Origin: an uncultured Formosa sp.
GTDB taxonomy: Bacteria; Bacteroidota; Bacteroidia; Flavobacteriales; Flavobacteriaceae
Length of the DNA stretch: 64,000 bases
Reading direction: 5' to 3'
Assembly (NCBI RefSeq): GCF_947500765.1
Contig: NZ_CANMTH010000005.1
Location: 186,001 to 250,000, forward strand
Below, one piece after another: positions 17,191-62,994 of this stretch (position 1 is the stretch's first letter; every line of letters starts with the position of its first letter). The position numbers and the translations under genes are program-made. The notes beneath the pieces were generated by a model. The model was not told the origin of the DNA and searched no databases. It saw nothing but the letters and a program-made list of their open reading frames with translations.

Positions 17191-18762
17191 ATGAAAAAAA
17201 ATATAATAATAATAATAATAATAATTGCAGCTTTATTTTGTTGTTCGGTACTTTTTGCTCAAAATATGAATGAAGTAGCCTCTAGTCATTTTTCAACTTT
17301 AAATTGGGTAATCTTAATCGTTTTCCTTTTAGGAACCACCTTAATTGGCGAACTCGTTAAAAATAAAGACAAAGGTTTAGATGCTTTTTTTAAAGGTGGA
17401 AACAACCTGCCTTGGTGGGCTGTTTCTTTATCGTTAATAGCAACAAAAACAAGTGTAGCTACATTTATAGCAGTACCCGCATTTATATTTTCTATGAATG
17501 GAAATTTAACCTATTTACAAATGACAATTGGTTTTGCTTTAGGGAATGTGCTATTTGTTTTTGTTTTACTAAAAGAATATTACGAAGAAGGCATTTTTAG
17601 TCCGTATGATTTTATTCAGAATAGATTAGGTATTAGAGTGAGTCAGTTATCTCGTGCCTTTTTTATGATTGGAGCAACTATGAGTCAAGGCGTACGATTA
17701 TTAGGAACCGCTCTGGTATTAAGTGTTATTACCGGACAAGACACGGTAGTTTGCATTGTTATTATTGCTGTTTTTGCAGTGGTATGGTCTTATATTGGAG
17801 GAATTACCACTGTAGTTTGGACCGACGCTATTCAATTTGTCATTTTTATTTTAGGTGCCTTTTTTGCTTTGTTTTATGCCATTGGAGATATACCAGGAGG
17901 TTTTGGCGAAATGATGAATATTGCAGATGAAAAAGCAAAACTAGTGCTTTTTGATTTGTCTTTAGACCCTCATAAAACGTATACCTTATGGGTTGGTGTT
18001 TTGGGGTGTACCTTTTTCGAATTTGGATCTAATGCTATAGATCAAGTCGTGACTCAACGTGCTTTATGTTGTAAAAATTTAAAAGAAGCAAGAAAAGCGG
18101 TTGCTTTTTCAGTAGTAGGAGTAGCGACCACTTGGATTATGGCTTTTGTAGGTATTGGTTTGGTAGCATATTACAATATTAATCCATTATCAGAACTAGT
18201 CAATAATTCCATTAGTTCAGAGCCTGATAGAATTTTTCCGTATTACGTTGTTAATGAGTTACCAAATGGTATCTCTGGATTAATTATAGCAGCCATGTTT
18301 GCCGCAGGTATTTCTACTTTAGATTCAGCATTAACAGCCTTATCACAAACAAGTGTTATGGGCGTAGGAACTTTAGTATTTCCTAAATTAAAAACCATGG
18401 CCGAAAACAAAGTGGTAAAAATCTCTAAAATAGCTATAGTTGTTTGGGGCGTTACTTTAGCAGTTTTGGCATATGGATTTAGCTTTTTTCAAGATGGGGG
18501 CTTATTAGCTTTAGGGTTTAAAGTTCCCGGCTATGCATACGGTGCTTTAATAGGAATTGCTTTTTTAGCCTTGATGAGAAAAGGAAATTTTACAGGAATA
18601 GTGTCAGGTGCTATTATTGCTGTTTTCACTATTGCGTGGATGCATTACGAAGGCATCAGTTTCTTTTGGTGGTTCCCTGTAGGAGCCTTAATTGTAATTA
18701 TTGTAGCACTAATACATTCAAAAATAATAACCAATACAGGAAATCAAACATCTGTTGTTTAA
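17191..18762 (+). CDS. Sodium:solute symporter (SSS family)
   Basis: An inner-membrane transporter of the SSS/SLC5 family (523 aa from the chosen start), with about 13 hydrophobic segments and family features such as the N-terminal FKGGNNLPWWAV stretch and AAMFAAGISTLDSALTA late in the protein. It would import a monosaccharide or uronate released by the locus. The ORF track starts at 17143, but ATG 17191 gives a clean signal-like N-terminus (MKKNIIIIIIIIAALFCC) and removes a charged 16-residue leader, so I prefer it. The hydrophobic start is encoded by a run of seven ATA codons. It is followed 38 bp later by the FAD oxidoreductase gene. Confidence 0.9.
   Translation: MKKNIIIIIIIIAALFCCSVLFAQNMNEVASSHFSTLNWVILIVFLLGTTLIGELVKNKDKGLDAFFKGGNNLPWWAVSLSLIATKTSVATFIAVPAFIFSMNGNLTYLQMTIGFALGNVLFVFVLLKEYYEEGIFSPYDFIQNRLGIRVSQLSRAFFMIGATMSQGVRLLGTALVLSVITGQDTVVCIVIIAVFAVVWSYIGGITTVVWTDAIQFVIFILGAFFALFYAIGDIPGGFGEMMNIADEKAKLVLFDLSLDPHKTYTLWVGVLGCTFFEFGSNAIDQVVTQRALCCKNLKEARKAVAFSVVGVATTWIMAFVGIGLVAYYNINPLSELVNNSISSEPDRIFPYYVVNELPNGISGLIIAAMFAAGISTLDSALTALSQTSVMGVGTLVFPKLKTMAENKVVKISKIAIVVWGVTLAVLAYGFSFFQDGGLLALGFKVPGYAYGALIGIAFLALMRKGNFTGIVSGAIIAVFTIAWMHYEGISFFWWFPVGALIVIIVALIHSKIITNTGNQTSVV
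17203..17223 (+). repeat. (ATA)7 trinucleotide repeat in the symporter start
   Basis: Seven consecutive ATA codons plus an ATT encode eight isoleucines in the first hydrophobic segment. Slippage would keep the frame but change the segment length. Confidence 0.9.
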
Positions 18763-18800
18763 ATATAAAATCAACATTAATAATTAAAAGAATAATTAAA

Positions 18801-20186
18801 ATGAAAACATTTAAAACCACATTAATAGAAGGATTTGATGTCATTGTTGTAGGAGGTGGTGTTTCAGGTAGTCATGCAGCAATTGCATCAGCCAAAACAG
18901 GAGCCAAAACATTATTAATAGAACAATTTGGTTTTTTAGGCGGATCGTTAACTGCGATGGGAGTTGGTCCGATGATGACTTTTCATAATAAAGCAGGAAG
19001 ACAATTAGTGTTCGGTTCTCCAAATGAAATGGTGAATCGTTTAATAGAAAAAGGGGCTAGTCCAGGACATATATTAGACAGTACAGGATATTGTTCTACC
19101 GTAACGCCTTTTGATGCTGAAATGTTAAAGGTAACTTTAGAAGATATGGTGCGAGAAGCTGGTGCAGAAATATTATACCATACGCGTCTGATTGATATTT
19201 CGCAAGAAGGTAGAGAAATCAAATCTGTATTTATTCATAATAAAGGAGGCATTCAAGAAATTCCTGCTAAGATATTCGTAGATGCTAGTGGAGATAGTGA
19301 AATCGTTAAACTCTCTGGCGTACCGTTTACAGAAGGGCGTCCGGAAGATAATAAATCGCAACCCATGACAACCAATATTAAAGTGGGTAATGTAAATACT
19401 GAAAAACTTAGGGAATACATGATTAATAATTGGGATCAGTTTGATGCTGAAGAACGTTCTGCCAATAAAGCCGAAATTCTTAAGAAAACCAAACGTATTT
19501 CTACATGGGGCTTTTACGATTTATGGAATGCAGCCAAAGCTAAAGGCGAGGTTACCGTGCCTAGAGATAATGTGTTGTTTTTTGAAACCAATACTGAAGG
19601 CGAATTTATTTTTAATACCTCTCGTGTGCTTGGTTTTGACCCTTTAAATCCATTCGACTTAAGTAAAGCGGAAACTATGGGACGTAAACAATGTGTCGAA
19701 ATTTTTAACTTTCTTAGAAACTACGCACCAGGTTTTGAAAATGCCACTTTTGTGAGTACAGCACCACATATTGGGATTAGAGAATCTCGCCATCCGCATG
19801 CTAAATATGTGCTTTGTGCAGAAGATTTGGTAAATGAAGTAAAATTTAAAGAACCTATTGCTGTTGGTGGTTATCCGTTAGATATTCATTCTCCTGATGG
19901 TGGAAATACAGATACGGTTCACCTAAAAGATGAAGGCGCGTATTACATTCCTAAAGATTCATTATTAACAAATGAAGTTGATAATTTGGTGCTTTCTGGG
20001 CGTGCTATTGGTGCCGATCATCATGCCAGTGCTGGATTACGAGTTACACCTATTGCCATGGCCATTGGTCAAGGTGCAGGAACTATTGCGGGCTTATCTG
20101 TAATGGAACATGTATTGCCTAACGATTTAGAGTATGCTAAATTAAAACAAGAGCTTGAAGACCATGGGGCTTATTTGGGAAACTAA
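18801..20186 (+). CDS. FAD-dependent oxidoreductase
   Basis: A 461 aa flavoprotein with an N-terminal dinucleotide-binding motif (VIVVGGGVSGSHAAI), an acidic strand end (LLIEQ) and the C-terminal FAD-contact region LRVTPIAMAIGQGAGT, as in the FAD_oxidored (PF12831-type) family. No signal peptide is present from the chosen start, so it is probably cytoplasmic. The ORF track begins at 18636 inside the symporter gene; the ATG at 18801 lies 38 bp after that gene's stop and starts directly before the domain. The family is common in Bacteroidota carbohydrate loci but its substrates are poorly known. An oxidation or dehydrogenation of an imported sugar acid is a reasonable guess. Confidence 0.85.
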   Translation: MKTFKTTLIEGFDVIVVGGGVSGSHAAIASAKTGAKTLLIEQFGFLGGSLTAMGVGPMMTFHNKAGRQLVFGSPNEMVNRLIEKGASPGHILDSTGYCSTVTPFDAEMLKVTLEDMVREAGAEILYHTRLIDISQEGREIKSVFIHNKGGIQEIPAKIFVDASGDSEIVKLSGVPFTEGRPEDNKSQPMTTNIKVGNVNTEKLREYMINNWDQFDAEERSANKAEILKKTKRISTWGFYDLWNAAKAKGEVTVPRDNVLFFETNTEGEFIFNTSRVLGFDPLNPFDLSKAETMGRKQCVEIFNFLRNYAPGFENATFVSTAPHIGIRESRHPHAKYVLCAEDLVNEVKFKEPIAVGGYPLDIHSPDGGNTDTVHLKDEGAYYIPKDSLLTNEVDNLVLSGRAIGADHHASAGLRVTPIAMAIGQGAGTIAGLSVMEHVLPNDLEYAKLKQELEDHGAYLGN

Positions 20187-20214: not shown

Positions 20215-22713
20215 ATGAAAACCAAAAACTTAATTGTTCTCGTTGGTATTCTTTTTAGCATCACTGTTGTGGCTAGAGAATCGGATCACAACATAATTTT
20301 AAGTAGTACGCACCAATCCAAAGTGGCTAAAGTAAATGAAACCATTACTTACTCATTTGAAATTAATAATGTTACTGATACGGAACACGTGTATCATGTT
20401 CAAATTAGAAATCCAAGAACATTAGCTTGTCAGGTTACTTTAAAAGATACCTTAGTTACAGTTAAGGGAAATCAAGTGTATCACGGTGCATTTTTAGTTC
20501 AAGTCAGTGATAGAATTCCTGTTGGCGGACAAGAATCAAGTTTTTTAGATATAAAAAATGAAGGGAATACACGTATTGAAACTTTAGAATTTATTACGGT
20601 ACGGTATAAACCACATCCATTCATTTTTGTAACGGATGCCGTGTTAGCAGAAGCTAAAGACAAGGTGAAGCATGTCGATTGGGCGAAACAAAATTTAGAC
20701 GCACTAATAGATTTTGCAAATCAATACGAAGTACCAGAACGAAAAATTGTAGACCTAGCTAGAAATACGCGCAGATGGAAAAGTCTTTCTTATCATGCTT
20801 CCGATTCCGAGAAGGCTTTTCAAGTACTCTTAGCGTATAAATTTACTGGGCATCAGGAGTATTTAAATAAAGTACTTCGGTTAGTTAAAGAGGTCACAGA
20901 TCCGGAACACGGGTATTTATCTATTGGTGCAGCAACAACGGGCGTTCAGGTGCATGAAGGGAATTTCTTTATGTACTTAGCAGCCATATGTGATGTGTTA
21001 TATGGTGAAGATGTTTTGACTAAACAAGAGCGTGAGAATATTGAAAATACGATGCGTTTGTATTTAGAGCAAGATCGTGAGCATATGAGTCCTATAGGTA
21101 TTATGAACCATCAAGCCAGTGCCAATGTTGGAGCTGTAATCACGGCGCTTTTTCTTCAAGATATGACCGCAGTGAATCATTTTGTAGAAAGTGATGGCGG
21201 TCTTATAGATCAAATGACCAAAGGAATAATGGCCGATGGTTGGTGGTTTGAAGGGACTCCGGGGTATTGCTATTTGGTAACCGAAAGGTTTAGTCTTACC
21301 GCTCAAGCTTTTGAAAATTACGGATGGAATTTATACGACAGACGTTTTCCTATGCGATTTAAAAGTAAAGATTTTGAAAATGTAAAAGCAGGTTATACGG
21401 GAATGAAATTTGATATTTGGGGACCTACAGGTAGCAGTACCAGAGGCCTTAAAGAAATGGTGAACGCTTATATTCCTATGATGGATGAAGACGCTAATTT
21501 AATTCCTAATAACGACGGAACGGTTTCAAAACCTCATGAGTTTTATGAATTGGCTTATAGACATTTTGGGCAAGAAAATTTGGCTTGGGTAATCAGTAAA
21601 TCTGAAAGAGATAGTTGGGAATCGTTGTTGTATGGTGTTGCAGAACTTCCTAAAGTAGAAGATCCTAGATCAGAATCAGAATATGTGTCTAATGTTGGCT
21701 TGGTAGCCTTGCGTTCTCAACCAAAAAATAAAACCCCAGAAGACCAAATTCAAGCCTATTTCAAATTTGGAACGCATGGCGGTTGGCATGGACATTTAGA
21801 TAGAACCGGAATGATTGCTTTAAACCGTTACGGACATAAGTATTTTGGAACCGAAATGGTGTGGTTTGGTTATGGCGATCCTGGATATAAGGAGAGTGTG
21901 CAAGCTTCGGCAACTCACAATATGGTTGTGGTTGATGGATTGCAGCAAGAAGCTGTACCATCAGAACAACTATTGTTTTATAAGGGCGATATCATGCAAG
22001 CGACTGTGGTACAAACAAAAGCCCGATGGAGACGGATTCCCATTTTTAATAAGGACCTGTTTCCTCCATGGAATGATTTCGATTTTGAACCTGATTTTGA
22101 ACCCGTACTACAACGTAGACTTTCTATTGTAACAGATGATTATGTTGTTATAGCGGACTATATGCAAGCCCCTCAAAAACATACTTACGATTGGATGTTA
22201 CATCCTGTTGGATTTCAATCTATTGATGGCACAAAAGCCAAAGGAGGCATAAAGCCAACATTAAGTGACGATTCAAATTCTCAATACAAATACTTTACCA
22301 ACGCACAATGGTATCAGTCAAAAGATGGGACTGAAGTCCAATTTCAAGAGCATGATATGAAGTTGGATGTCCATACCCTTTGGCCAAAAAAAGCGGATGT
22401 TGTAGTGGCAAGTTATCCAAATGGAGGTAAGCAACGCGACATCAGAAATAATCCAGATCGAGCAACTTATGGCGTTCGGGTATCTGGTAAAGAAGCTCAG
22501 TTTTTAACGGTTTTAGAACCGTATAAAAATGCATCTGCAATTTCTAAGATCACATCGAAAAATGAAAACGAACTCACCGTGTATCTTAAAGACGGAAAGA
22601 AACAAGTTATTCGTATAGCCCATATTAAAGATGCAAATATAAAGGTCACTATTAAAGCGTATGTGAATGAGGTGTTAGTTGCAACAAATCAAGCTCTAGC
22701 TACTGATAATTAA
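20215..22713 (+). CDS. Heparinase II/III-fold polysaccharide lyase
   Basis: An 832 aa secreted protein (signal MKTKNLIVLVGILFSITVVA). It has an Ig-like N-terminal domain (about 25-130), an alpha/alpha toroid (about 140-470) and a beta-sandwich starting near residue 510 with FGTHGGWHGHLDRTG, the His-rich region that lines the active site in heparinase II-type lyases. It is a shorter paralogue of the 508-4035 protein, lacking its extra N-terminal domain. It lies 28 bp after the FAD oxidoreductase gene and 61 bp before the beta-helix esterase, so it is probably in the same operon. The cleaved uronate linkage cannot be deduced. Confidence 0.87.
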   Translation: MKTKNLIVLVGILFSITVVARESDHNIILSSTHQSKVAKVNETITYSFEINNVTDTEHVYHVQIRNPRTLACQVTLKDTLVTVKGNQVYHGAFLVQVSDRIPVGGQESSFLDIKNEGNTRIETLEFITVRYKPHPFIFVTDAVLAEAKDKVKHVDWAKQNLDALIDFANQYEVPERKIVDLARNTRRWKSLSYHASDSEKAFQVLLAYKFTGHQEYLNKVLRLVKEVTDPEHGYLSIGAATTGVQVHEGNFFMYLAAICDVLYGEDVLTKQERENIENTMRLYLEQDREHMSPIGIMNHQASANVGAVITALFLQDMTAVNHFVESDGGLIDQMTKGIMADGWWFEGTPGYCYLVTERFSLTAQAFENYGWNLYDRRFPMRFKSKDFENVKAGYTGMKFDIWGPTGSSTRGLKEMVNAYIPMMDEDANLIPNNDGTVSKPHEFYELAYRHFGQENLAWVISKSERDSWESLLYGVAELPKVEDPRSESEYVSNVGLVALRSQPKNKTPEDQIQAYFKFGTHGGWHGHLDRTGMIALNRYGHKYFGTEMVWFGYGDPGYKESVQASATHNMVVVDGLQQEAVPSEQLLFYKGDIMQATVVQTKARWRRIPIFNKDLFPPWNDFDFEPDFEPVLQRRLSIVTDDYVVIADYMQAPQKHTYDWMLHPVGFQSIDGTKAKGGIKPTLSDDSNSQYKYFTNAQWYQSKDGTEVQFQEHDMKLDVHTLWPKKADVVVASYPNGGKQRDIRNNPDRATYGVRVSGKEAQFLTVLEPYKNASAISKITSKNENELTVYLKDGKKQVIRIAHIKDANIKVTIKAYVNEVLVATNQALATDN

Positions 22714-22774: not shown

Positions 22775-24787
22775 ATGAAAAAAATAATTAGCCTTGTGTT
22801 TATGATCATGGCGGTTTTTATAGCGCATGCAAAACCTGTTTCAAAGGACACTATATTTATAAATTCAGTAGAAAAGTTAGCGAAATATGCTGCTAAGAGC
22901 AATGTAGTAGTTAAAATGAAACCTGGAGAATATGCTATAAATTCTATTAAAATAGGAGGTTTAAGCGTGTTTAAATATGTTGAAAATAATAAGCATAAGG
23001 GCGATTTCCGTATTGGTTCTCTCATTCATTTTTCAGGAAATAACAGTCAGTATTTTTTAACCGGAGTGACTCTTAATATTGATGGTAAATTGCATGATAA
23101 TTACCCTAAAAGTGAGTTTAGCGAGTTTTTAGTGAGCGGAAACAATAATTATATAGAAGGCCTAAAAGGAAAAGATATTGGAAATCATGTCCCTGCAAAA
23201 CGTGTACAAATGTTACGCGTTATGGGGGATGATAATATCATTAAAAATGCCGATTTATTTGTGCATGGATCCTACCCGTATGGGTATGGTCATTTGTTAG
23301 GAAAAGGAGGGAATGCTTTGGTGAAAACTCAAAAACATTCGGTGTTACTAGTAGAAGGCACAAATACGCAATTATTGGGGTGTAAAGTGGTGTCTCATGC
23401 CTTTGGTCATGGTATATTTATGCAAGGCGCGGTAAATACGTTACTACAAGATTGCTATGTAGAAGGTAAAAAGCGGTCTACTAACGAGATACTTGCAGAA
23501 ACTTCTGGTCCTGCATTTAGCGTGGGCTTTAAAAGTGATTATCCGCCAGGAGTCATTCTGCCTAACGAAATAAAATCATTATCTGAAGACGGTATTAGAG
23601 CCTATCCTTCTGGAGGTTTAAGCGGCAGACGAACTCAAGGTGTAACGGTTATTAATTGTACCGTTAAAAACATGCGCTCCGGTTTCGATTTAAGTGCCAA
23701 CTTACCACCGACTAAAATTGTAGGATCAACCGCTATTGGGTGTCAGGAAAAGGGATTTTCTGTAGGAGATCACGGCGTTATTGAACACTCTAAAGGCGAT
23801 GCTTTATATGGTCCGCTAATTACTTTTGTGGGTAATAACATAAAAAACTGTACCATTGATTTAGAGTTAACCGATGCTGTAAGTGAGTACAACGTATCGC
23901 GCTTAGCGGAAATTAATGGATCTGGCCATCATATTACCATTCGTAATTATCAAAATAAAAAACGTAGTGTTGAAACTCCTATCGTTTTTGGAGAATCGTT
24001 TTGGGATGATGTGCACCGTTATAGAAACCCAGATAAACCTAGTGGAACTTATGCTGGCGCTAAAAATATTCAGTTATTTAATTACACAGGAATGCCCGTG
24101 AAGTTGAACGATTTATCTGTGAATTGTACCGTAACGAATTCAGAACAAAAGAACAAAGTTGTGAATGCCGGTATTGGCGGAAATTCGACAACTGATTTGT
24201 TAAGACGTGTAGACAAAGATGTCCTAGCAAAGCATCCAGATGTAGTGATTATGATGGTTGGAACCAACGATATGCTGAATTCTAATAAGATGATAGATTA
24301 TGAAACCTACACAGCTAACTTAGAAACTTTGATTAAAAAGATTAAATCCAACGGATCGGAATTGATTTTAATGAGTCCTATTCCAGTAGATAGTGTTTAT
24401 CTTTTCACTAGACATGATCGTGCGGTATTTAAAGAAACTCCAAATGAGAAAATAGATAAAGTAGGCGGAATTGTTAAAGCATTAGCTACAGAAAATAAAA
24501 TCCATTTTTATAATTTGAATGCTGAATTTAAAGCTCTGAATTTACCACAGCACAATCAGGATGTATTCATAAAAAATGAAAAGAACAGCGAAAAAAAAGA
24601 TGGTGTACACCCAACGGCATTAGGATATCGATTTATTGCACAAAACGTATATCAGTTTCTAAAAGCAAATCATCTATTAAAACCAGATCAAAACATTATG
24701 TGTTTTGGAGATTCTATCACGAGAGGTGATGGAGGTGGTGCAAATTATCCAACATATTTAAATGAGCTGTTAGTACAAAACAATTAA
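22775..24787 (+). CDS. Right-handed beta-helix protein fused to an apparently circularly permuted SGNH/GDSL hydrolase
   Basis: A 670 aa secreted protein (signal ending FIAHA). Residues about 25-445 form a parallel beta-helix with repeated VxNCxVxN-type coils, as in pectate-lyase-like lyases. The last 210 residues carry every SGNH block, but in an unusual order: block II NAGIGGNST (about 464), block III MVGTND (about 493), block V DGVHP (Asp609, His612), and only then block I CFGDSITRG with Ser647, 24 residues from the end. In ordinary SGNH enzymes GDS comes first. The gene is intact, so the domain looks circularly permuted. It would act as an acetyl or other ester remover on a bound polysaccharide; the beta-helix may bind or cleave it. 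Confidence 0.82.
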   Translation: MKKIISLVFMIMAVFIAHAKPVSKDTIFINSVEKLAKYAAKSNVVVKMKPGEYAINSIKIGGLSVFKYVENNKHKGDFRIGSLIHFSGNNSQYFLTGVTLNIDGKLHDNYPKSEFSEFLVSGNNNYIEGLKGKDIGNHVPAKRVQMLRVMGDDNIIKNADLFVHGSYPYGYGHLLGKGGNALVKTQKHSVLLVEGTNTQLLGCKVVSHAFGHGIFMQGAVNTLLQDCYVEGKKRSTNEILAETSGPAFSVGFKSDYPPGVILPNEIKSLSEDGIRAYPSGGLSGRRTQGVTVINCTVKNMRSGFDLSANLPPTKIVGSTAIGCQEKGFSVGDHGVIEHSKGDALYGPLITFVGNNIKNCTIDLELTDAVSEYNVSRLAEINGSGHHITIRNYQNKKRSVETPIVFGESFWDDVHRYRNPDKPSGTYAGAKNIQLFNYTGMPVKLNDLSVNCTVTNSEQKNKVVNAGIGGNSTTDLLRRVDKDVLAKHPDVVIMMVGTNDMLNSNKMIDYETYTANLETLIKKIKSNGSELILMSPIPVDSVYLFTRHDRAVFKETPNEKIDKVGGIVKALATENKIHFYNLNAEFKALNLPQHNQDVFIKNEKNSEKKDGVHPTALGYRFIAQNVYQFLKANHLLKPDQNIMCFGDSITRGDGGGANYPTYLNELLVQNN

Positions 24788-46213: not shown

Positions 46214-48886
46214 ATGCGATTTAAAAACATTCTCAGTTTAGTTATCATTTTCCTTTTTATAGGAATACATAGTCATGCTCAACACACGTCCAATCATCCA
46301 CGTTTATTTGTGGAACATCAGGATAGAGATGCCTTAATAAAAAAGATTGAGACAGAAGATTGGGCCAAAGCATCTTTTAAGGCGTTAACCTCAGAAATAG
46401 ATCCTTATGTAAACCGTCATGTTACAGATCCAGAATGGATTGTGTCACGATTAGCGATGTATTGGAAAGATGGCGAACACTTTACGCAATGTTATATCAA
46501 AGATCAAAATTGGGATTATGGAGAAGGCAATGCACCTGTGCCAACCGTACGGTTACCAGGTATGCGTACTTGGAATGATTATGTAAATGTACCTTTAGAA
46601 GATCGTATTCCGTATAATACTACGGGAGATTTATTAGGAATTAGTCGCTCTAATGCCGATAAAACACCTGTTTTAATTCCGTATAAAGAAACCGGACATA
46701 TGATTCGTGCTAACAATGCTGAAATTTTAAAATTAGCAGAACAAGCCGCTTTTGTGTATTACATTACTCAAGATGAAAAATATGCAAAATTCTCATCAGA
46801 TATCTTATGGCCATGGTTATTAGGAACGTATTATATGCAACCACCTTTAGATCCAGAAGAGTCTACAGGCGGACCAGGAGGTTATGAGCCAGGCGGAATT
46901 ATGGGCTATTATGATTATGAAGTGATTCATGACGATAGACAAACTCCTACAGCTATAGCTTACGATTTTTTGTATGATTATTTGAATGCACATCCGCATG
47001 AACATTTAAAAACCATGAATAAAACTACATCAGAAGTTGCAGGAGTAGTCTTTAAACGTTTTATAGAAATTGGATTGATTAGAGGTGGAAAATTGGGAAA
47101 TTGGAATGTAAATCGCTATAAGAATATCTTAAATAGTATGCTTGTTTTAGAATCTAACGATTTTTATAAAGATGGAAAAGGACGTGAATATTACATCCCA
47201 TTTTATACCGAAAAATCGGGAGAACATTATGCAGGCTTACCAGAAATATTAGCATACTATAATAAAACCACAGGATTGTGGCCAGAATCTCCAGGTTATG
47301 CTTCAGGAATGATTCCTACAGTATTAGAAATGGGTGTGAAATTATACAAATCTGGAGTAAATACTTTAGCCGGAAATCCAATAATTAGTAAGGCTGCATT
47401 AGCAAATTTAGGATGGTTAGATGCTCGTGGAAACTTAGTTGTTTTTGGAGATATGCGTGGTGGTCCTGCAAATATTTCATCTTTCGAATCGCTTTTAACA
47501 TATTCTACTTGGGAAGGCGATACAGAAACATCTAAAAAAATGGCCACTGTAATTCGTAAAAACATAGCCTCTGGACAATATGATAGAAGTAAATCAGATT
47601 GGAAAGGTATTGTTTTTAATCAGCCATTACCAGATTCAGGAAGCGAATTACCATTTTATAAAGCAGCATATTCTCCATTTCATAAACATATAATTATGAG
47701 AAATGGAAATGACGAGAATAATGGGATGATGTTTACGCTTTACGGCGGAAAACATAAATCTCATTTAACAGCTAATGGTTTGGCAATGCAATTTTACGGA
47801 AAAGGTTGGGCTTTGGCTCCAGATGCTTCTGCATACGAATCGTATTGGTCTAAAGATGCTTCGTATCATAGAGGGATATCTGGATCAAATACCATTCAGC
47901 CAGGATATAGTAGTGGAGATATTATTGTAAATGCTATGAATCCGTCTGTAGATACTACTGCAGGTTTTTATAATTCGACAGAGACCTCTAAACATGTGTC
48001 TTTTGCAGATGTTTCTGCAGCAGAAAAACGTCGTGTAGTTGCTATGATACGTACTTCTGAAACCACAGGATATTATGTAGATGTTTTTAGATCTAATCAA
48101 TCAGATAACGATTATATTCATCATAATCTTGGTAATACGATGGCTTTAAAAACGACTGCAAATAGTCCGTTAACATTAGAAAAAGTGAATGATTTAGGCG
48201 TAAAGTACGATAAGAATTATACGTTTTTTAAAAATCAAAGAAAAGTTAAGTATTCAGAGGATTTTAATGCCACTTGGACCACTACAGCAGTGTCTCCAGA
48301 ATTGGAAGTAAATATGTGGATGATGGGACAAGATAACCGTGAATTATATGTAGTCGATGCACCTCCAACAACACTTAGAGCAGATATTACTCCAGGTGCA
48401 GTTAATAAAAGTCCAGAAACAACACCAACTCTAATTGTACGTCAGAATGGAATTAATGGACAGGATTATCCATTTGTTTCTGTATTTGAGTCTTATGATA
48501 CAGGAAAGAAATCTATTCAAAATATTGAAAAATTAGAAACTTCAGAACATTTTGTAAGTCTGAAAGTAGCATCTAAAAATAGTACTCAATTTGTATACAA
48601 TTCAACAGATAATAAAGTGTATGCACCAGAAAAGAAAATGAAATTTCAAGGTGTATTTGCAGTTGCTTCAGAAAAAAATGGAGACTTTGAGTATTTGTAT
48701 TTAGGACAAGGAAAGTTGTTACAACACAATAAATATAGTATTGAAGCTGTAAACGATTCGGTTTCTGCAGAACTTATATTTGAAAACGGTATATATTATT
48801 ATTCTGCAGACCAGCCTGTAATAATTAAACTTAAAAAAGGTAAATCAAAAACGTATCCTGCGGGCTCTCACATTGAAATTAAGTAA
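46214..48886 (+). CDS. Heparinase II/III-fold polysaccharide lyase
   Basis: An 890 aa secreted protein (signal ending HSHAQ). It opens with HPRLFVEHQDRDALIKKI and a helical toroid (DPEWIVSRLAMYWKDG, GEGNAPVPTVRLPG), then a beta-sandwich from about residue 500 (MMFTLYGGKHKSHLTANGLAMQFYG), the position of the active-site His in this fold. A C-terminal beta domain ends the protein. It is clearly homologous to the adjacent protein at 48887 and the partial one at 63028, and only distantly to those at 508 and 20215. Substrate is unknown; a uronate-containing chain is expected. Confidence 0.85.
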   Translation: MRFKNILSLVIIFLFIGIHSHAQHTSNHPRLFVEHQDRDALIKKIETEDWAKASFKALTSEIDPYVNRHVTDPEWIVSRLAMYWKDGEHFTQCYIKDQNWDYGEGNAPVPTVRLPGMRTWNDYVNVPLEDRIPYNTTGDLLGISRSNADKTPVLIPYKETGHMIRANNAEILKLAEQAAFVYYITQDEKYAKFSSDILWPWLLGTYYMQPPLDPEESTGGPGGYEPGGIMGYYDYEVIHDDRQTPTAIAYDFLYDYLNAHPHEHLKTMNKTTSEVAGVVFKRFIEIGLIRGGKLGNWNVNRYKNILNSMLVLESNDFYKDGKGREYYIPFYTEKSGEHYAGLPEILAYYNKTTGLWPESPGYASGMIPTVLEMGVKLYKSGVNTLAGNPIISKAALANLGWLDARGNLVVFGDMRGGPANISSFESLLTYSTWEGDTETSKKMATVIRKNIASGQYDRSKSDWKGIVFNQPLPDSGSELPFYKAAYSPFHKHIIMRNGNDENNGMMFTLYGGKHKSHLTANGLAMQFYGKGWALAPDASAYESYWSKDASYHRGISGSNTIQPGYSSGDIIVNAMNPSVDTTAGFYNSTETSKHVSFADVSAAEKRRVVAMIRTSETTGYYVDVFRSNQSDNDYIHHNLGNTMALKTTANSPLTLEKVNDLGVKYDKNYTFFKNQRKVKYSEDFNATWTTTAVSPELEVNMWMMGQDNRELYVVDAPPTTLRADITPGAVNKSPETTPTLIVRQNGINGQDYPFVSVFESYDTGKKSIQNIEKLETSEHFVSLKVASKNSTQFVYNSTDNKVYAPEKKMKFQGVFAVASEKNGDFEYLYLGQGKLLQHNKYSIEAVNDSVSAELIFENGIYYYSADQPVIIKLKKGKSKTYPAGSHIEIK

Positions 48887-51756: not shown

Positions 51757-54114
51757 ATGAAGTATTTTTTAATAATTTTTACTTTGTTCTTTTTTTCATG
51801 TCACACAAAAGAAAATAATATTAGTATTTTGTACGTGACTGCCCATAAAATAGAACAGCCTAATGGTAGTAAGGAACAACCATTTGCCACTTTAGAAGAT
51901 GCCGTTAAAAAAGCTTCAGAATTAAGAGAGCAGCATGCCAATTTAAAGATTGAAATACACCTACTTCCAGGGAATTATAATTTAGAGAACGCCATAAAAA
52001 TTACTCCAAAATTAAACGGAATTTCAATTAAAGGAACTGCAGCTTCAGAAGTTACAATTAAAGGATCTAAAAAGGTATCGCTTAACTGGGAAAGTTATAA
52101 TGATACTATTTTTGTAGCAGATGTTGATCCTGATTTAGATTTTGATCAGCTTATTATTAATGGCGATCCTCAAATTTTAGCGCGCTATCCTAATTATGAC
52201 GAAGCGGCTCATTATTGGAACGGATCTGCAGCTGATGCCATTTCTAAAGAACGTATAGCGACTTGGAAACATCCTAAAGGAGCTTATTTTCATGCTTTAC
52301 ATAATGGGAAATGGGGCGGATTTCATTTTGTAATCACAGGAGTAAACGAAGATGGAACAGCAATTTTAGAAGGCGGACAACAAAACAATCGTGGTTCTAA
52401 ACCTCACGAAGAGTTTAGAATGGTGGAAAACGTATTTGAAGAATTAGATAATCCAGGAGAATGGTACTTAGATTCAGAGACACATAAACTATACTATTGG
52501 CCAACCAAAAACATAAATTTAGAATCATCTACTATTGAAGTCGCAGTACTTAAAGACTTAATACAAGTTGTTGGTACTTTAGAAAATCCAGTAAAAGATG
52601 TAACTATAAGCGGTATAACTTTTAAATATACCAAGCGTACCTTTATGGAAGATTATGAACCACTTTTACGTAGTGATTGGTCTATTTATAGAGGTGGTGT
52701 ATTGTTTTTTGAAGGTACAGAAAATTGTAACATAACAGATAATGAATTTACTCATTTAGGCGGAAACGTGATTATGGTAAGTAAATATAATTCAGGCTTG
52801 CTCGTTATGGGAAATCATATTCATGAAAATGGAGCTAGTGCCGTATCTTTTGTAGGAGATCCGTCTGCGGTACGTTCGCCTTCATTTAATTATGGGCAAT
52901 TTGTAGATTTAAAAGATATGGATACCGTTGCAGGTCCTAAAAACGAATTATACCCTAGAAATTGTGTTGTCGAAGACAATTTAATATACCGTATTGGTAG
53001 AATAGAAAAACAAACTGCAGGAGTAGAAATTGCTATGGCAATGGATATTACAGTAAGTCATAATAGTATTTACGACGTCCCAAGAGCTGGTATTAATATT
53101 GGAGATGGTACATGGGGTGGTCATATTTTAGAATATAACGATGTGTTTAATACCGTTTTAGAAACCAGTGATCATGGATCGTTTAACTCTTGGGGACGCG
53201 ATCGTTTTTGGCTTCCTAAACGCCATAAAATGGATAGCATAACTATGGCCATTCCTAATATGTACACATGGGATGCTGTAAAAACAACAATTATTAGAAA
53301 TAATAGGTTTCGTTGCGATCATGGTTGGGATGTCGATCTGGACGATGGCTCATCAAACTATCATATTTATAATAATTTAATGCTTAATAACGGACTTAAA
53401 TTACGTGAAGGATTTAATCGTGTTGCAGAAAACAATATCATGGTAAATAACTCTTTGCATCCGCATGTATGGTTTGCTAATAGTGAAGATGTATTTAAGC
53501 ATAATATTATTGGAGATGCGTATCAAGATGTGGGCTTGTTAGGTTGGGGTAAAGAATTGGATTATAATTTCTTTCCTAATGAAGTCTCTATGATGAAATC
53601 TCAAATTTACGATAGAGATTTACATAGTGCTTATGGAGATCCGATGTTTAAAGATCCAAAACATTTAGATTTTAGTGTTACCGAAAATTCTCCAGCATTA
53701 AAAATAGGCTTCAAAAATTTCCCTATGGATCAGTTTGGAGTTCAAAAAGAAAGTTTTAAAAAGATAGCTAAAACACCTGAAGTTCCTATCTTGAAAGATC
53801 CGTCAGAAAAACAAAGTAGTCCTGTTGTAGCTTGGTTACGTAATCAGTTAAAATCTGTAGAGTCTCAGCAAGAACAATCGGCTTATGGGTTAAATTCTGC
53901 TGAAGGTGTTATTGTATTAAACATATGGAAACCAAGTCCTGCTGTTCAAAATAATGGCATTAAAAAAGGAGATGTTATTCTTCAAGCAGATGGGAAATTG
54001 GTAAAGAATGTTCAAGATTTCTTCAGCATAAATGTAGAAAATTCTACACATGAAATGGAGTTAGTTGTTATGAGAAACCAGTCTGAGAAGACCATTAATA
54101 TAAAAACAAAATAA
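51757..54114 (+). CDS. GH141-like beta-helix protein with C-terminal PDZ domain, lipoprotein
   Basis: A 785 aa protein with a lipobox (FFFSC). The N-terminal QPNGSKEQPFATLEDAVKKA and the long run of beta-helix coils (NCNITDNEFTHLGGN, NCVVEDNLIYRIG, TVSHNSIYDVPRAGINIGDG, SDHGSFNSWGRDRFW) resemble GH141, whose characterised member is an alpha-L-fucosidase active on rhamnogalacturonan II. Residues about 690-785 form a PDZ domain (SAEGVIVLNIWKPSPAVQNNGIKKGDVILQADGKLV). PDZ domains normally bind peptide C-termini, so its presence on a glycan enzyme is unusual. It is 21 bp before a GH29 fucosidase. The family call is by resemblance, not proven. Confidence 0.75.
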   Translation: MKYFLIIFTLFFFSCHTKENNISILYVTAHKIEQPNGSKEQPFATLEDAVKKASELREQHANLKIEIHLLPGNYNLENAIKITPKLNGISIKGTAASEVTIKGSKKVSLNWESYNDTIFVADVDPDLDFDQLIINGDPQILARYPNYDEAAHYWNGSAADAISKERIATWKHPKGAYFHALHNGKWGGFHFVITGVNEDGTAILEGGQQNNRGSKPHEEFRMVENVFEELDNPGEWYLDSETHKLYYWPTKNINLESSTIEVAVLKDLIQVVGTLENPVKDVTISGITFKYTKRTFMEDYEPLLRSDWSIYRGGVLFFEGTENCNITDNEFTHLGGNVIMVSKYNSGLLVMGNHIHENGASAVSFVGDPSAVRSPSFNYGQFVDLKDMDTVAGPKNELYPRNCVVEDNLIYRIGRIEKQTAGVEIAMAMDITVSHNSIYDVPRAGINIGDGTWGGHILEYNDVFNTVLETSDHGSFNSWGRDRFWLPKRHKMDSITMAIPNMYTWDAVKTTIIRNNRFRCDHGWDVDLDDGSSNYHIYNNLMLNNGLKLREGFNRVAENNIMVNNSLHPHVWFANSEDVFKHNIIGDAYQDVGLLGWGKELDYNFFPNEVSMMKSQIYDRDLHSAYGDPMFKDPKHLDFSVTENSPALKIGFKNFPMDQFGVQKESFKKIAKTPEVPILKDPSEKQSSPVVAWLRNQLKSVESQQEQSAYGLNSAEGVIVLNIWKPSPAVQNNGIKKGDVILQADGKLVKNVQDFFSINVENSTHEMELVVMRNQSEKTINIKTK

Positions 54115-56588: not shown

Positions 56589-57623
56589 ATGAAATTTTTT
56601 AAAAAAACTATAGTCCTTTTTATTACAGGAATAATGTGCTTAACAACAGGTTTTGCTCAGGAAAATGCGAATAAGAACACAAATTCTGATTACAATCAGT
56701 TTGGTGAAACATGGAAAAATGAAAATAAAGAGGCTATTTTTGAAGTATCTGAGAGTCCTTACGAAAAACCAAATTGGGGTCGTTATACCAAAAAAGATGA
56801 TGTTATTTATGCTATTGTTAATGAGTGGCCAAAGGATGGAAAACTTGTTATTGATAGAAATATGAAAGTAAGAACCGCTTTCTTAGATTATGGAGATAAA
56901 AAATTAAAAACAAAATTAATAGACGGAAATTTAACCATTTTCCTACCTGAAGAAAATCCTAATACTATGGCTACAGTTGTAAAAATTCAATTAACACCTA
57001 CAGAAGATTGGGCAAATTTAGAACGTTATAGCGCGGCAAATGCAGCACTAGAAGCACCTGCTAAAAATGAAAAACGAGTGGTGTTTATAGGGAATTCAAT
57101 AACCGATAATTGGACTAGAGATCATGGTGTGTTTTTTGAAGAGAATCCAACGTTTGTCAATAGAGGAATTAGTGGTCAAACCAGTGCGCAAATGTTATTA
57201 CGCTTTAGACCAGACGTGATCGAGTTGCAACCTAAAGTAGTTGTAATTTCTGCAGGAACAAACGACATTGCAGGAAATAGAGGTTATATAAGCTTAGACC
57301 GTATTGCAGGAAATATTTTTTCTATGGTAGAGTTAGCTAAGGCAAATAATATAAAAGTAATATTAGCATCGGTACTTCCTGCTAGTAGTTATTCTTGGAG
57401 TCCATCTATCGAACCAGCAGATAAGATTATTGAACTGAATACACTTTTAAAAGCGTATGCTAAAAAAAATAAGATTATTTATTTAGATTATTATACGCCA
57501 ATGGTTAATGACGATAAAGGCCTAATAAAGGAATTAGGTAGAGATACTGTTCACCCAAATGTAGAGGGCTATCTTATCATGGAACCTATGGTGAAAGCCG
57601 CAATATCTAAAGCTTTGAAATAG
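56589..57623 (+). CDS. SGNH hydrolase fused to a GH29-type C-terminal domain
   Basis: A 344 aa secreted protein (signal ending GFAQ). Residues about 45-135 (NKEAIFEVSESPYEKPNWGRYTKKDDVIYAIV...) closely match the C-terminal domain of the neighbouring fucosidase (NGEAIYGATASPYEKPKWGRYTEKDGVLYALV). Residues about 155-344 are an SGNH hydrolase in normal order: FIGNSIT (Ser170, block I with Asn for Asp), NRGISGQTS, SAGTND and DTVHP (Asp319, His322). It probably removes acetyl or other esters from the glycan. The fused domain seems to come from duplication of the fucosidase 3' end. Confidence 0.88.
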   Translation: MKFFKKTIVLFITGIMCLTTGFAQENANKNTNSDYNQFGETWKNENKEAIFEVSESPYEKPNWGRYTKKDDVIYAIVNEWPKDGKLVIDRNMKVRTAFLDYGDKKLKTKLIDGNLTIFLPEENPNTMATVVKIQLTPTEDWANLERYSAANAALEAPAKNEKRVVFIGNSITDNWTRDHGVFFEENPTFVNRGISGQTSAQMLLRFRPDVIELQPKVVVISAGTNDIAGNRGYISLDRIAGNIFSMVELAKANNIKVILASVLPASSYSWSPSIEPADKIIELNTLLKAYAKKNKIIYLDYYTPMVNDDKGLIKELGRDTVHPNVEGYLIMEPMVKAAISKALK

Positions 57624-61032: not shown

Positions 61033-62994
61033 ATGAAAATGAATACTTATAAAAGAATCGGAAAAGGTATCTTATACATGCCTTTCGTTGTTTTGATTTT
61101 AAGTTTGGTTAATTGTAAAAATGAAGTATCTAAAACTATTGAACCTTTAGATTTAAAAGCTTTTATTCAAGCAGCAAACCAGGATACGATTTATCCTTCA
61201 GTAACACAAATAGAGATGCTTAAAAAGGTGATGCCAAAAGACGCATTTCAGCCAGCACCAAAAATATCAGACCGAAAATATTGGAATGCCATTGCTGTTA
61301 CAAAATCAGGACAAGAATATTTGGAAAAAGCAAAGTCTTTATTAGATAAAGCACCAGAAGTTCCTATTTCAGACAGTATTTATCGTTTAGCAAATAAGGA
61401 AGGAAATCGTAAAATTTATAAACCAAGGTATTACAGAACCATGGATCGCTTAGAGCATTATATTCTTGCAGAATGTTTAGAAAATAAAGGTCTCTTTTTA
61501 CCTCAAATAGAAACCTATGCTAAAGCTATCTTATCTATGAAATCTTGGGTGCATCCAAATCATGACGATGGCAATAATGGAATTTTAGAAGGGAGACGTG
61601 TTTCTATAGATTTGGGAGCCCGAAAATTTGGATCGGTATTAGCTATCGCCGAATCGCTTTTACAAGATAAACTACCAGAAGATTTACGTACAGAAATTTC
61701 TAAGGAAATTCAAACACGTATCACAGATACTTATTTGAAGAGTACGAAATATTTAGATGAAAATAACACTTGGATAAAAAGTACAAGTAACTGGAATTCT
61801 GTTTGTACTAGTGGAGCCATTTTAGCAACCATAACCAATTCTCAAGATTACAATAAACGTTTAGTAGCAGTAGGATCGGCTTTAAATAGTATGCGATATT
61901 ATTTAACTGGTTTTGGAGAAGATGGGTATTGTTCTGAAGGTTTAGGATATTGGGGCTACGGATTTAGTCATTATTTATATTTAGCTCAGATTATATCAGA
62001 TTATTCAGACGGACAAATCGATATGTTTAAATTCGATAATCCTGAGAAGCTTAAAAACGTCGGAAACTTTCCAGAGAATTTTGTAATTCAAAAAGGACGA
62101 TGTGCTCCATTTGCCGATGGCGTTTCAAAAACATCAAGTAGCGGAAGCAATTTTGCGAATGTATTATCAGCGTATCATTATAATGCTATTCAGCCTACAG
62201 AAATACGTATGGAAGAAGCTGCCGAACAATTAATAGCTTGGAATCATCCCGCTTTATTTGAAGTAAGTAGCCAAGAAAAAACACCAGAATTACCTAGTCA
62301 TACGTATTTTGAAGATTTTGGTATGGTAATTTCTAGAGGGAAACAACAAACTCCTTTTTCAATCGCTTTAAAAGCAGGACATAATGCTGAAAACCATAAT
62401 CACAGCGATGTTGGTACTTATACTTTGGTTTTAGGCCAAGATGTTATGTCGGGAGATATCGGAGCACCTTCCTACACTGCTGGAGCATTTTCTCCTAAAA
62501 ACCCTGCACGTAGTTCTTGGGGACACCCACTTCCAAAACTAAATAATACTTTGCAATCTAATGGTATAGCACATAAAGGTGTGTTTACAAGTACAGATTT
62601 TAAAGCCGATAAAGATCAAGTTGTTGTAGATATTAAACCTGCTTACGATTTTCCTGTTTTAGAGCTATTAAAACGTACCATGACTAACGATAAAACGGGT
62701 TCAGGAACCATAACTATTGAAGACTATTTTGTTGCTTCAGAACCTATAACTTTTGAAACTGCAATTATGACTTTAAATAATTATAAAGTTGTAGATAAGA
62801 GTACCGTAATTTTAATGTCAAAACATCATAAAGTAAAAGCAGAAATTAAGAGTGAAGGCTTTAAATTTACCATAAAGGATGTAGAAGTACCTGTAAAGCA
62901 TTTACGAGAAGGCGGACCCGCATTTCGCATTGGAATTCAATCGGATAAAGCTGTAAATACTGGTAAAATTATTATTGTTTACACCCCACTTTAA
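61033..62994 (+). CDS. Heparinase II/III-fold polysaccharide lyase, lipoprotein
   Basis: A 653 aa lipoprotein (lipobox SLVNC). An alpha/alpha toroid (about 80-410; STSNWNSVCTSGAI, GFGEDGYCSEGLGYWGYG) is followed by the beta-sandwich with GHNAENHNHSDVGTYTLVLGQDVMSGDIG, the most canonical heparinase II/III active-site motif in this window. It differs from the other lyases here, which lack the NHNHSD form. With GH88 enzymes in the locus it could be an exo-lyase that trims oligosaccharides in the periplasm; that is inference. It is 33 bp before the final partial lyase gene. Confidence 0.92.
   Translation: MKMNTYKRIGKGILYMPFVVLILSLVNCKNEVSKTIEPLDLKAFIQAANQDTIYPSVTQIEMLKKVMPKDAFQPAPKISDRKYWNAIAVTKSGQEYLEKAKSLLDKAPEVPISDSIYRLANKEGNRKIYKPRYYRTMDRLEHYILAECLENKGLFLPQIETYAKAILSMKSWVHPNHDDGNNGILEGRRVSIDLGARKFGSVLAIAESLLQDKLPEDLRTEISKEIQTRITDTYLKSTKYLDENNTWIKSTSNWNSVCTSGAILATITNSQDYNKRLVAVGSALNSMRYYLTGFGEDGYCSEGLGYWGYGFSHYLYLAQIISDYSDGQIDMFKFDNPEKLKNVGNFPENFVIQKGRCAPFADGVSKTSSSGSNFANVLSAYHYNAIQPTEIRMEEAAEQLIAWNHPALFEVSSQEKTPELPSHTYFEDFGMVISRGKQQTPFSIALKAGHNAENHNHSDVGTYTLVLGQDVMSGDIGAPSYTAGAFSPKNPARSSWGHPLPKLNNTLQSNGIAHKGVFTSTDFKADKDQVVVDIKPAYDFPVLELLKRTMTNDKTGSGTITIEDYFVASEPITFETAIMTLNNYKVVDKSTVILMSKHHKVKAEIKSEGFKFTIKDVEVPVKHLREGGPAFRIGIQSDKAVNTGKIIIVYTPL

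Follow-up and report, generated by a model that had tools for sequence, protein, structure and literature searches.

A circularly permuted SGNH domain of the order G-N-H-S joined to a fucoidan-lyase-like beta-helix in an uncultured Formosa sp.

We found that the C-terminal domain of a 670-residue protein from an uncultured Formosa sp. is a true circular permutation of an SGNH hydrolase domain, and that it is joined to a beta-helix homologous to the fucoidan lyase FdlA. On balance, we favor the view that the domain represents an undescribed G-N-H-S family of SGNH hydrolases, which occurs mainly as separate secreted proteins in Bacteroidota and was fused once to a fucoidan lyase, with one chain deacetylating and lysing the same algal glycan.

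The gene lies in the window, that is, the whole stretch of 64,000 nucleotides that was analyzed; the contig has 275,733 bases, and the genome 4.36 Mb. Its features are as follows (supporting evidence in parentheses).

22775..24787, plus strand: whole gene, FdlA-like beta-helix and circularly permuted SGNH domain, 670 aa (open reading frame; eight orthologues with the same architecture)
22775..22834, plus strand: putative signal peptide, residues 1-20 (sequence reading: basic start, hydrophobic core, AHA-K)
22850..24139, plus strand: FdlA-like beta-helix domain, residues 26-455 (Pfam Beta_helix, phmmer, Foldseek, residue alignment)
24152..24784, plus strand: circularly permuted SGNH domain, residues 460-670 (Pfam, alignment, rotation, AlphaFold2, Foldseek, profile against PDB)
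24164..24190, plus strand: block II NAGIGGNST, residues 464-472, with the predicted oxyanion Gly (invariant alignment columns)
24254..24271, plus strand: block III MVGTND, residues 494-499, with the predicted oxyanion Asn498 (GTND invariant)
24599..24613, plus strand: block V DGVHP, residues 609-613, with Asp609 and His612 (D, G, and H invariant; 34-36 aa ahead of GDS in 27 proteins)
24701..24727, plus strand: block I CFGDSITRG, residues 643-651, with the predicted nucleophile Ser647, moved to the C-terminus (C, GDS, and T invariant; rotation joins the domain)

The protein is probably secreted, with a periplasmic location.

Circular permutation of the SGNH domain

The initial annotation, made from the sequence of this gene, had placed the C-terminal SGNH blocks in the order II-III-V-I, Ser647 coming shortly before the stop, and had proposed a circular permutation. 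The block order was confirmed, and the numbering of Ser647, Asp609, and His612 in the 670-aa open frame is exact; the block II Gly corresponds to residues 466/469, and the block III Asn to residue 498. The block residues of the SGNH superfamily (Ser, Gly, Asn, and Asp-x-x-His of blocks I, II, III, and V) are present. As the GDS block is not N-terminal, the domain is a permuted variant rather than a canonical member. The same block order in homologues had been set beforehand as a check, and it was present in 30 distinct homologous proteins, comprising nine fusions with the helix and 21 proteins without it. When 23 permuted homologues were aligned, the block II Gly, GTND, D..H, and GDS formed invariant columns, all in the order II-III-V-I. 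A pattern search of 27 distinct proteins gave a spacing of 34-36 aa between Asp-x-x-His and Gly-Asp-Ser. Among the nine fusion orthologues, pN/pS was 0.20-0.27 in block I and 0.22 in the remainder of the SGNH domain, indicating purifying selection on block I. This selection, together with the invariance of Gly-Asp-Ser, Asp, His, and Asn across the 23 proteins, whose identity falls to about 40%, makes it very improbable that the domain is non-catalytic and retains GDSIT at its C-terminus as a structural remnant. A chance GDS motif was ruled out by the invariance, the constant spacing, and the rotation test described below, and likewise because the block order is conserved across Bacteroidota.

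Pfam Lipase_GDSL_2 (PF13472) matched residues 459-619 above the cut-off, and the profile was covered only from about position 32-35. As the match begins past the N-terminal part of the profile, block I is absent from its usual place. A search of the permuted C-terminal region against SGNH profiles, suggested in the initial annotation, gave a complete match once the domain was rotated: the score rose from 88.8 bits (profile 35-177) to 102.3 bits (1-177, complete). For a normal-order HMM, we used 20 SGNH proteins with blocks in that order; they were themselves matches to the permuted query, a limit of the test, but block order had no role in finding them. Against this HMM, the unrotated window domain aligned as two swapped pieces (profile 38-200 and then 2-28), and the rotated domain aligned as a single piece (2-200) with a gain of 12 bits. 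Rotation joined block I in 22 of the 23 proteins tested, the exception being the divergent L029. In a comparison of the permuted-family profile with PDB entry 1yzf, a normal-order chain, block I matched chain residues 2-15 and the remainder matched residues 26-189. None of the best stretches listed in the comparison with the PDB crossed the blocks in the permuted order.

AlphaFold2 modeled the SGNH domain in its natural order (23 permuted rows) with a pLDDT of 95.6 and a pTM of 0.91, and block I was modeled as an ordered strand. Foldseek matched this model to SGNH structures at probability 1.00, and the alpha/beta/alpha SGNH fold was found; the TM score was only about 0.6 because the aligner depends on chain order. 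The acetylxylan esterases AlAXEase (7ddy) and Axe2 were the closest solved folds. These two and the Bacteroides-type acylhydrolases (such as 3p94), which are the closest solved folds or sequences, share all the catalytic blocks with the window domain; they have the order I-II-III-V, whereas the window domain has II-III-V-I and relocated termini. Confidence in the SGNH part was lower when the full-length protein was modeled, probably because only nine similar rows covered it; the separate domain model was therefore used. The rotation test, the profile-to-PDB match, the high-confidence model, and the 30 same-order homologues thus agree on circular permutation.

Circular permutations are thought to originate through tandem duplication. 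If so, an intermediate is conceivable in which the terminal GDS is the start of a cut-off second SGNH domain (through a truncated tandem, a frameshift, or an assembly artifact) and the real block I is missing. This explanation has hardly any probability here, as rotation yields exactly one complete domain, and all 30 permuted homologues lack a second SGNH domain after the GDS and end or enter other sequence soon after block I with constant spacing; their number also rejects a frameshift or assembly error. In L096 (Mariniflexile sp. AS56), 284 residues follow the serine and form a non-SGNH extension. By appearance, this extension resembles a beta-sandwich with a Por secretion (T9SS sorting) tail, and the gene lies about 17 kb from the fusion gene of the same genome.

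AlgX, AlgJ, PatB1, and WssI likewise represent a natural circular permutation of the SGNH fold, with a different cut that the initial annotation had not mentioned; all four are SGNH-like O-acetyltransferases, and AlgX/AlgJ have an altered block III Asn and block V. For permuted members, a review of SGNH families and related papers give the order H-S-G-N only (PMC9487903, PMC4148444, PMC10302187). AlgX, AlgJ, PatB1, and WssI are cut before block V and have altered blocks, whereas the window domain is cut after block I and retains the canonical hydrolase residues. The H-S-G-N order of AlgX/AlgJ and the DHHW permuted family was not found in the window domain, which has the order G-N-H-S. Judged solely from the block order, the G-N-H-S permutation would be independent of that of AlgX. 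By title or abstract, no open-licence paper reported a permuted SGNH order other than H-S-G-N, and an earlier account elsewhere is possible; permuted SGNH proteins as such are already known, and the G-N-H-S family is apparently undescribed within the open-licence literature.

The FdlA-like beta-helix and its locus

The right-handed beta-helix seen in the initial annotation, which had left its family unnamed, is present (Pfam Beta_helix) and is more specifically FdlA-like. Phmmer aligned residues 26-464 with the catalytic domain of the fucoidan lyase FdlA (E 2.3e-64), and Foldseek aligned the full-length model with FdlA structures at a target TM of about 0.85. A generic carbohydrate-binding beta-helix was dropped in favor of this homology. 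FdlA of Flavobacterium sp. SA-0082 (PDB 7xz7 to 7xzf) cuts sulfated fucoglucuronomannan by beta-elimination, and its mutants D137A, K141A, H176A, F179A, E236A, R240A, and Y242A/F are nearly inactive (PMC9410043). Six of these seven essential residues are kept in the window protein as Lys177, His212, Phe215, Glu271, Arg275, and Tyr277 (Lys141, His176, Phe179, Glu236, Arg240, and Tyr242 of FdlA, respectively).

The remaining residue, Asp137 of FdlA, is replaced by His173 here, as in the entire fusion clade and its sister. In FdlA, Asp137 keeps Arg272 away from the pocket, and this arginine is conserved as Arg301. The replacement, with the arginine retained, makes an altered pocket likely, and the helix may be less than fully active as a lyase, have another specificity, or only bind. 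One could thus suppose that the permuted SGNH domain is the sole enzyme and that the helix, its cleavage lost or changed, is a binding module for the glycan, as the inactive FdlA mutants still bind substrate (PMC9410043). We consider this rather unlikely, as six essential residues are retained, among them the Tyr and Lys proposed to be catalytic, and as the pN/pS of the helix (0.15) is lower than that of the SGNH domain, indicating stronger purifying selection.

Among open-licence papers, none was found that linked PL43 with fucoidan lyase; thus, we give no CAZy family number. The same genome contains at least three more FdlA-like helices (L002, L003, and L004), two of them in tandem; L002 and L004 are located at C5:183537-186276, immediately upstream of the window and running into it. 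The residue that corresponds to FdlA Lys141 is missing from one sub-group of FdlA-like helices.

The surrounding locus carries GH43, GH39, GH88-type, GH30, GH29, GH3, sulfatase, 3-keto-disaccharide hydrolase, and SusC/D genes, as well as heparinase-like, GH141-like, and normal-order SGNH proteins. An SSS-like transporter and an FAD oxidoreductase were assigned partly by sequence reading. In Formosa algae and Algibacter amylolyticus, much of this gene order also surrounds the fusion gene. The gene content and the lyase homology point to a fucoidan-type polysaccharide-utilization locus. Free-standing permuted relatives are also found in loci without obvious fucoidan genes (Pontibacter and Chitinophagaceae); therefore, the substrate of the esterase need not be fucoidan.

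The FAD-dependent oxidoreductase gene is located at 18636-20186 of the window. Such a gene was near the permuted SGNH gene, often adjacent, in nine of the 14 free-standing loci examined (L018, L019, L025, L078, and L081-L085) and in most fusion loci; PF12831 was found in the sole neighbor scanned, that of L082. A functional link between the two is possible. In L083, L084, and L085, the permuted SGNH gene has the gene of a predicted membrane protein on one side; the gene on the other side, which in L083 encodes a second esterase (SASA family), precedes a GMC oxidoreductase gene (scanned in L083). This context hints at sugar-oxidation pathways, not fucoidan alone.

Several other genes of the window were recorded. 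The gene at 56589-57620 encodes a normal-order SGNH esterase with an alpha-L-fucosidase C-terminal-like domain, and that at 51757-54114 encodes a GH141-like beta-helix protein. The latter carries a PDZ domain at its C-terminus, an apparently unusual feature in a glycosidase; L008 and L014 have homologues of this protein that are about 72% identical. The protein encoded at 20215-22713 (832 aa) had no Pfam, PDB, or NCBIfam match, and those at 46214-48886 (890 aa) and 61033-62994 (653 aa) had no Pfam or NCBIfam match. In the window, as in L006, L009, and L010, the gene for the 832-aa protein is immediately ahead of the fusion gene.

Distribution of the permuted proteins and origin of the fusion

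Homologues were collected by a scan of one genome per species from all phyla, and extra members came from genome searches. The scan gave eight further full-length fusions (75-86% identical) and several free-standing proteins. The latter have about 240 residues; their signal peptide leads directly into block II, and GDSIT is near the C-terminus. All the relatives returned by the scan belong to Bacteroidota; the normal-order SGNH proteins from the same searches formed a separate group with far lower scores. A close permuted relative was present in four of 396 evenly drawn Bacteroidota genomes, the window genome included. In a survey of 301 genomes from the family to which the window genome belongs, that genome and one other had the fusion, and free-standing forms occurred in five. 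The permuted family is thus uncommon yet widely scattered. Plasmid records searched with a free-standing member gave no match.

In the SGNH tree, the nine fusions formed one group (98/91), nested among free-standing forms by midpoint rooting. The near free-standing L059, L060, and L018 adjoin genes like those of the window locus (sulfatases, heparinase-like, or GH39). These sequence relationships suggest that the permutation arose first in a separate protein and that a single fusion event followed. In the helix tree, the helix-only L014 (Algibacter miyuki) was placed inside the fusion group, within which support was modest. The L014 reading frame ends at the domain junction and the same genome has a separate permuted SGNH protein (L092), which suggests that the fused SGNH domain was lost.

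L013 of Arcticibacter svalbardensis (Sphingobacteriaceae) is a fusion protein with 78% identity to that of the window, nested among Flavobacteriaceae in both trees; its placement may reflect horizontal transfer or contamination.

Proposed function

The initial annotation had suggested a two-in-one enzyme. The homology of the helix to a fucoidan lyase of known structure and the fucoidan-type locus strengthen the idea, with both activities predicted. The fusion is present in nine genomes. The protein is probably a secreted bifunctional enzyme in which a fucoidan-lyase-like helix and a permuted SGNH esterase act on sulfated fucoglucuronomannan. Like FdlA, the helix would cut by beta-elimination, in a backbone that contains uronic acid, and the SGNH domain would strip O-acyl groups, most likely acetyl, off the same glycan. 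Ser647-His612-Asp609 would form the triad, and the oxyanion hole would be made up of Asn498 and the Gly of block II. The original N- and C-termini would be bridged by a short linker and the new termini would lie after the first helix, ahead of the second strand; the block I strand with the nucleophile would be read last. Our analyses establish the permutation, the family and its conservation, the FdlA homology of the helix, and the genomic context, whereas the geometry of the pocket, the two catalytic activities, acetyl as the substrate, and the cooperation within one chain are inferred. Fucoidans are reported to be acetylated (PMC13380512), and acetyl groups on fucoglucuronomannan in particular are presumed.

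The known permuted SGNH proteins are O-acetyltransferases, and the free-standing relatives occur in varied loci; the domain could accordingly act on another ester, or be an acyl transferase like AlgX, AlgJ, and PatB1, instead of a fucoidan acetylesterase. We regard this as improbable, as the permutation differs, the closest solved relatives are acetyl-ester hydrolases, and the locus is degradative. Hydrolysis is also favored by the canonical Asn (block III) and Asp-x-x-His (block V), both altered in AlgX/AlgJ. The bifunctional enzyme that we prefer would catalyze the same reaction as the fucoidan deacetylase reportedly described by Nagao in 2017 (cited in PMC7896085), the removal of acetyl groups from fucoidan; the two are likened by reaction, not by sequence.

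Our finding indicates that the SGNH fold was naturally permuted a second time, in a different way, with the canonical hydrolase residues kept, and it bears on the evolution of such folds. It also bears on automatic annotation, because a profile match that begins only at block II leaves out the nucleophile. Fucoidan is a slowly degraded marine carbon store, and the protein is a candidate, with defined residues, for the deacetylation step of fucoidan breakdown.
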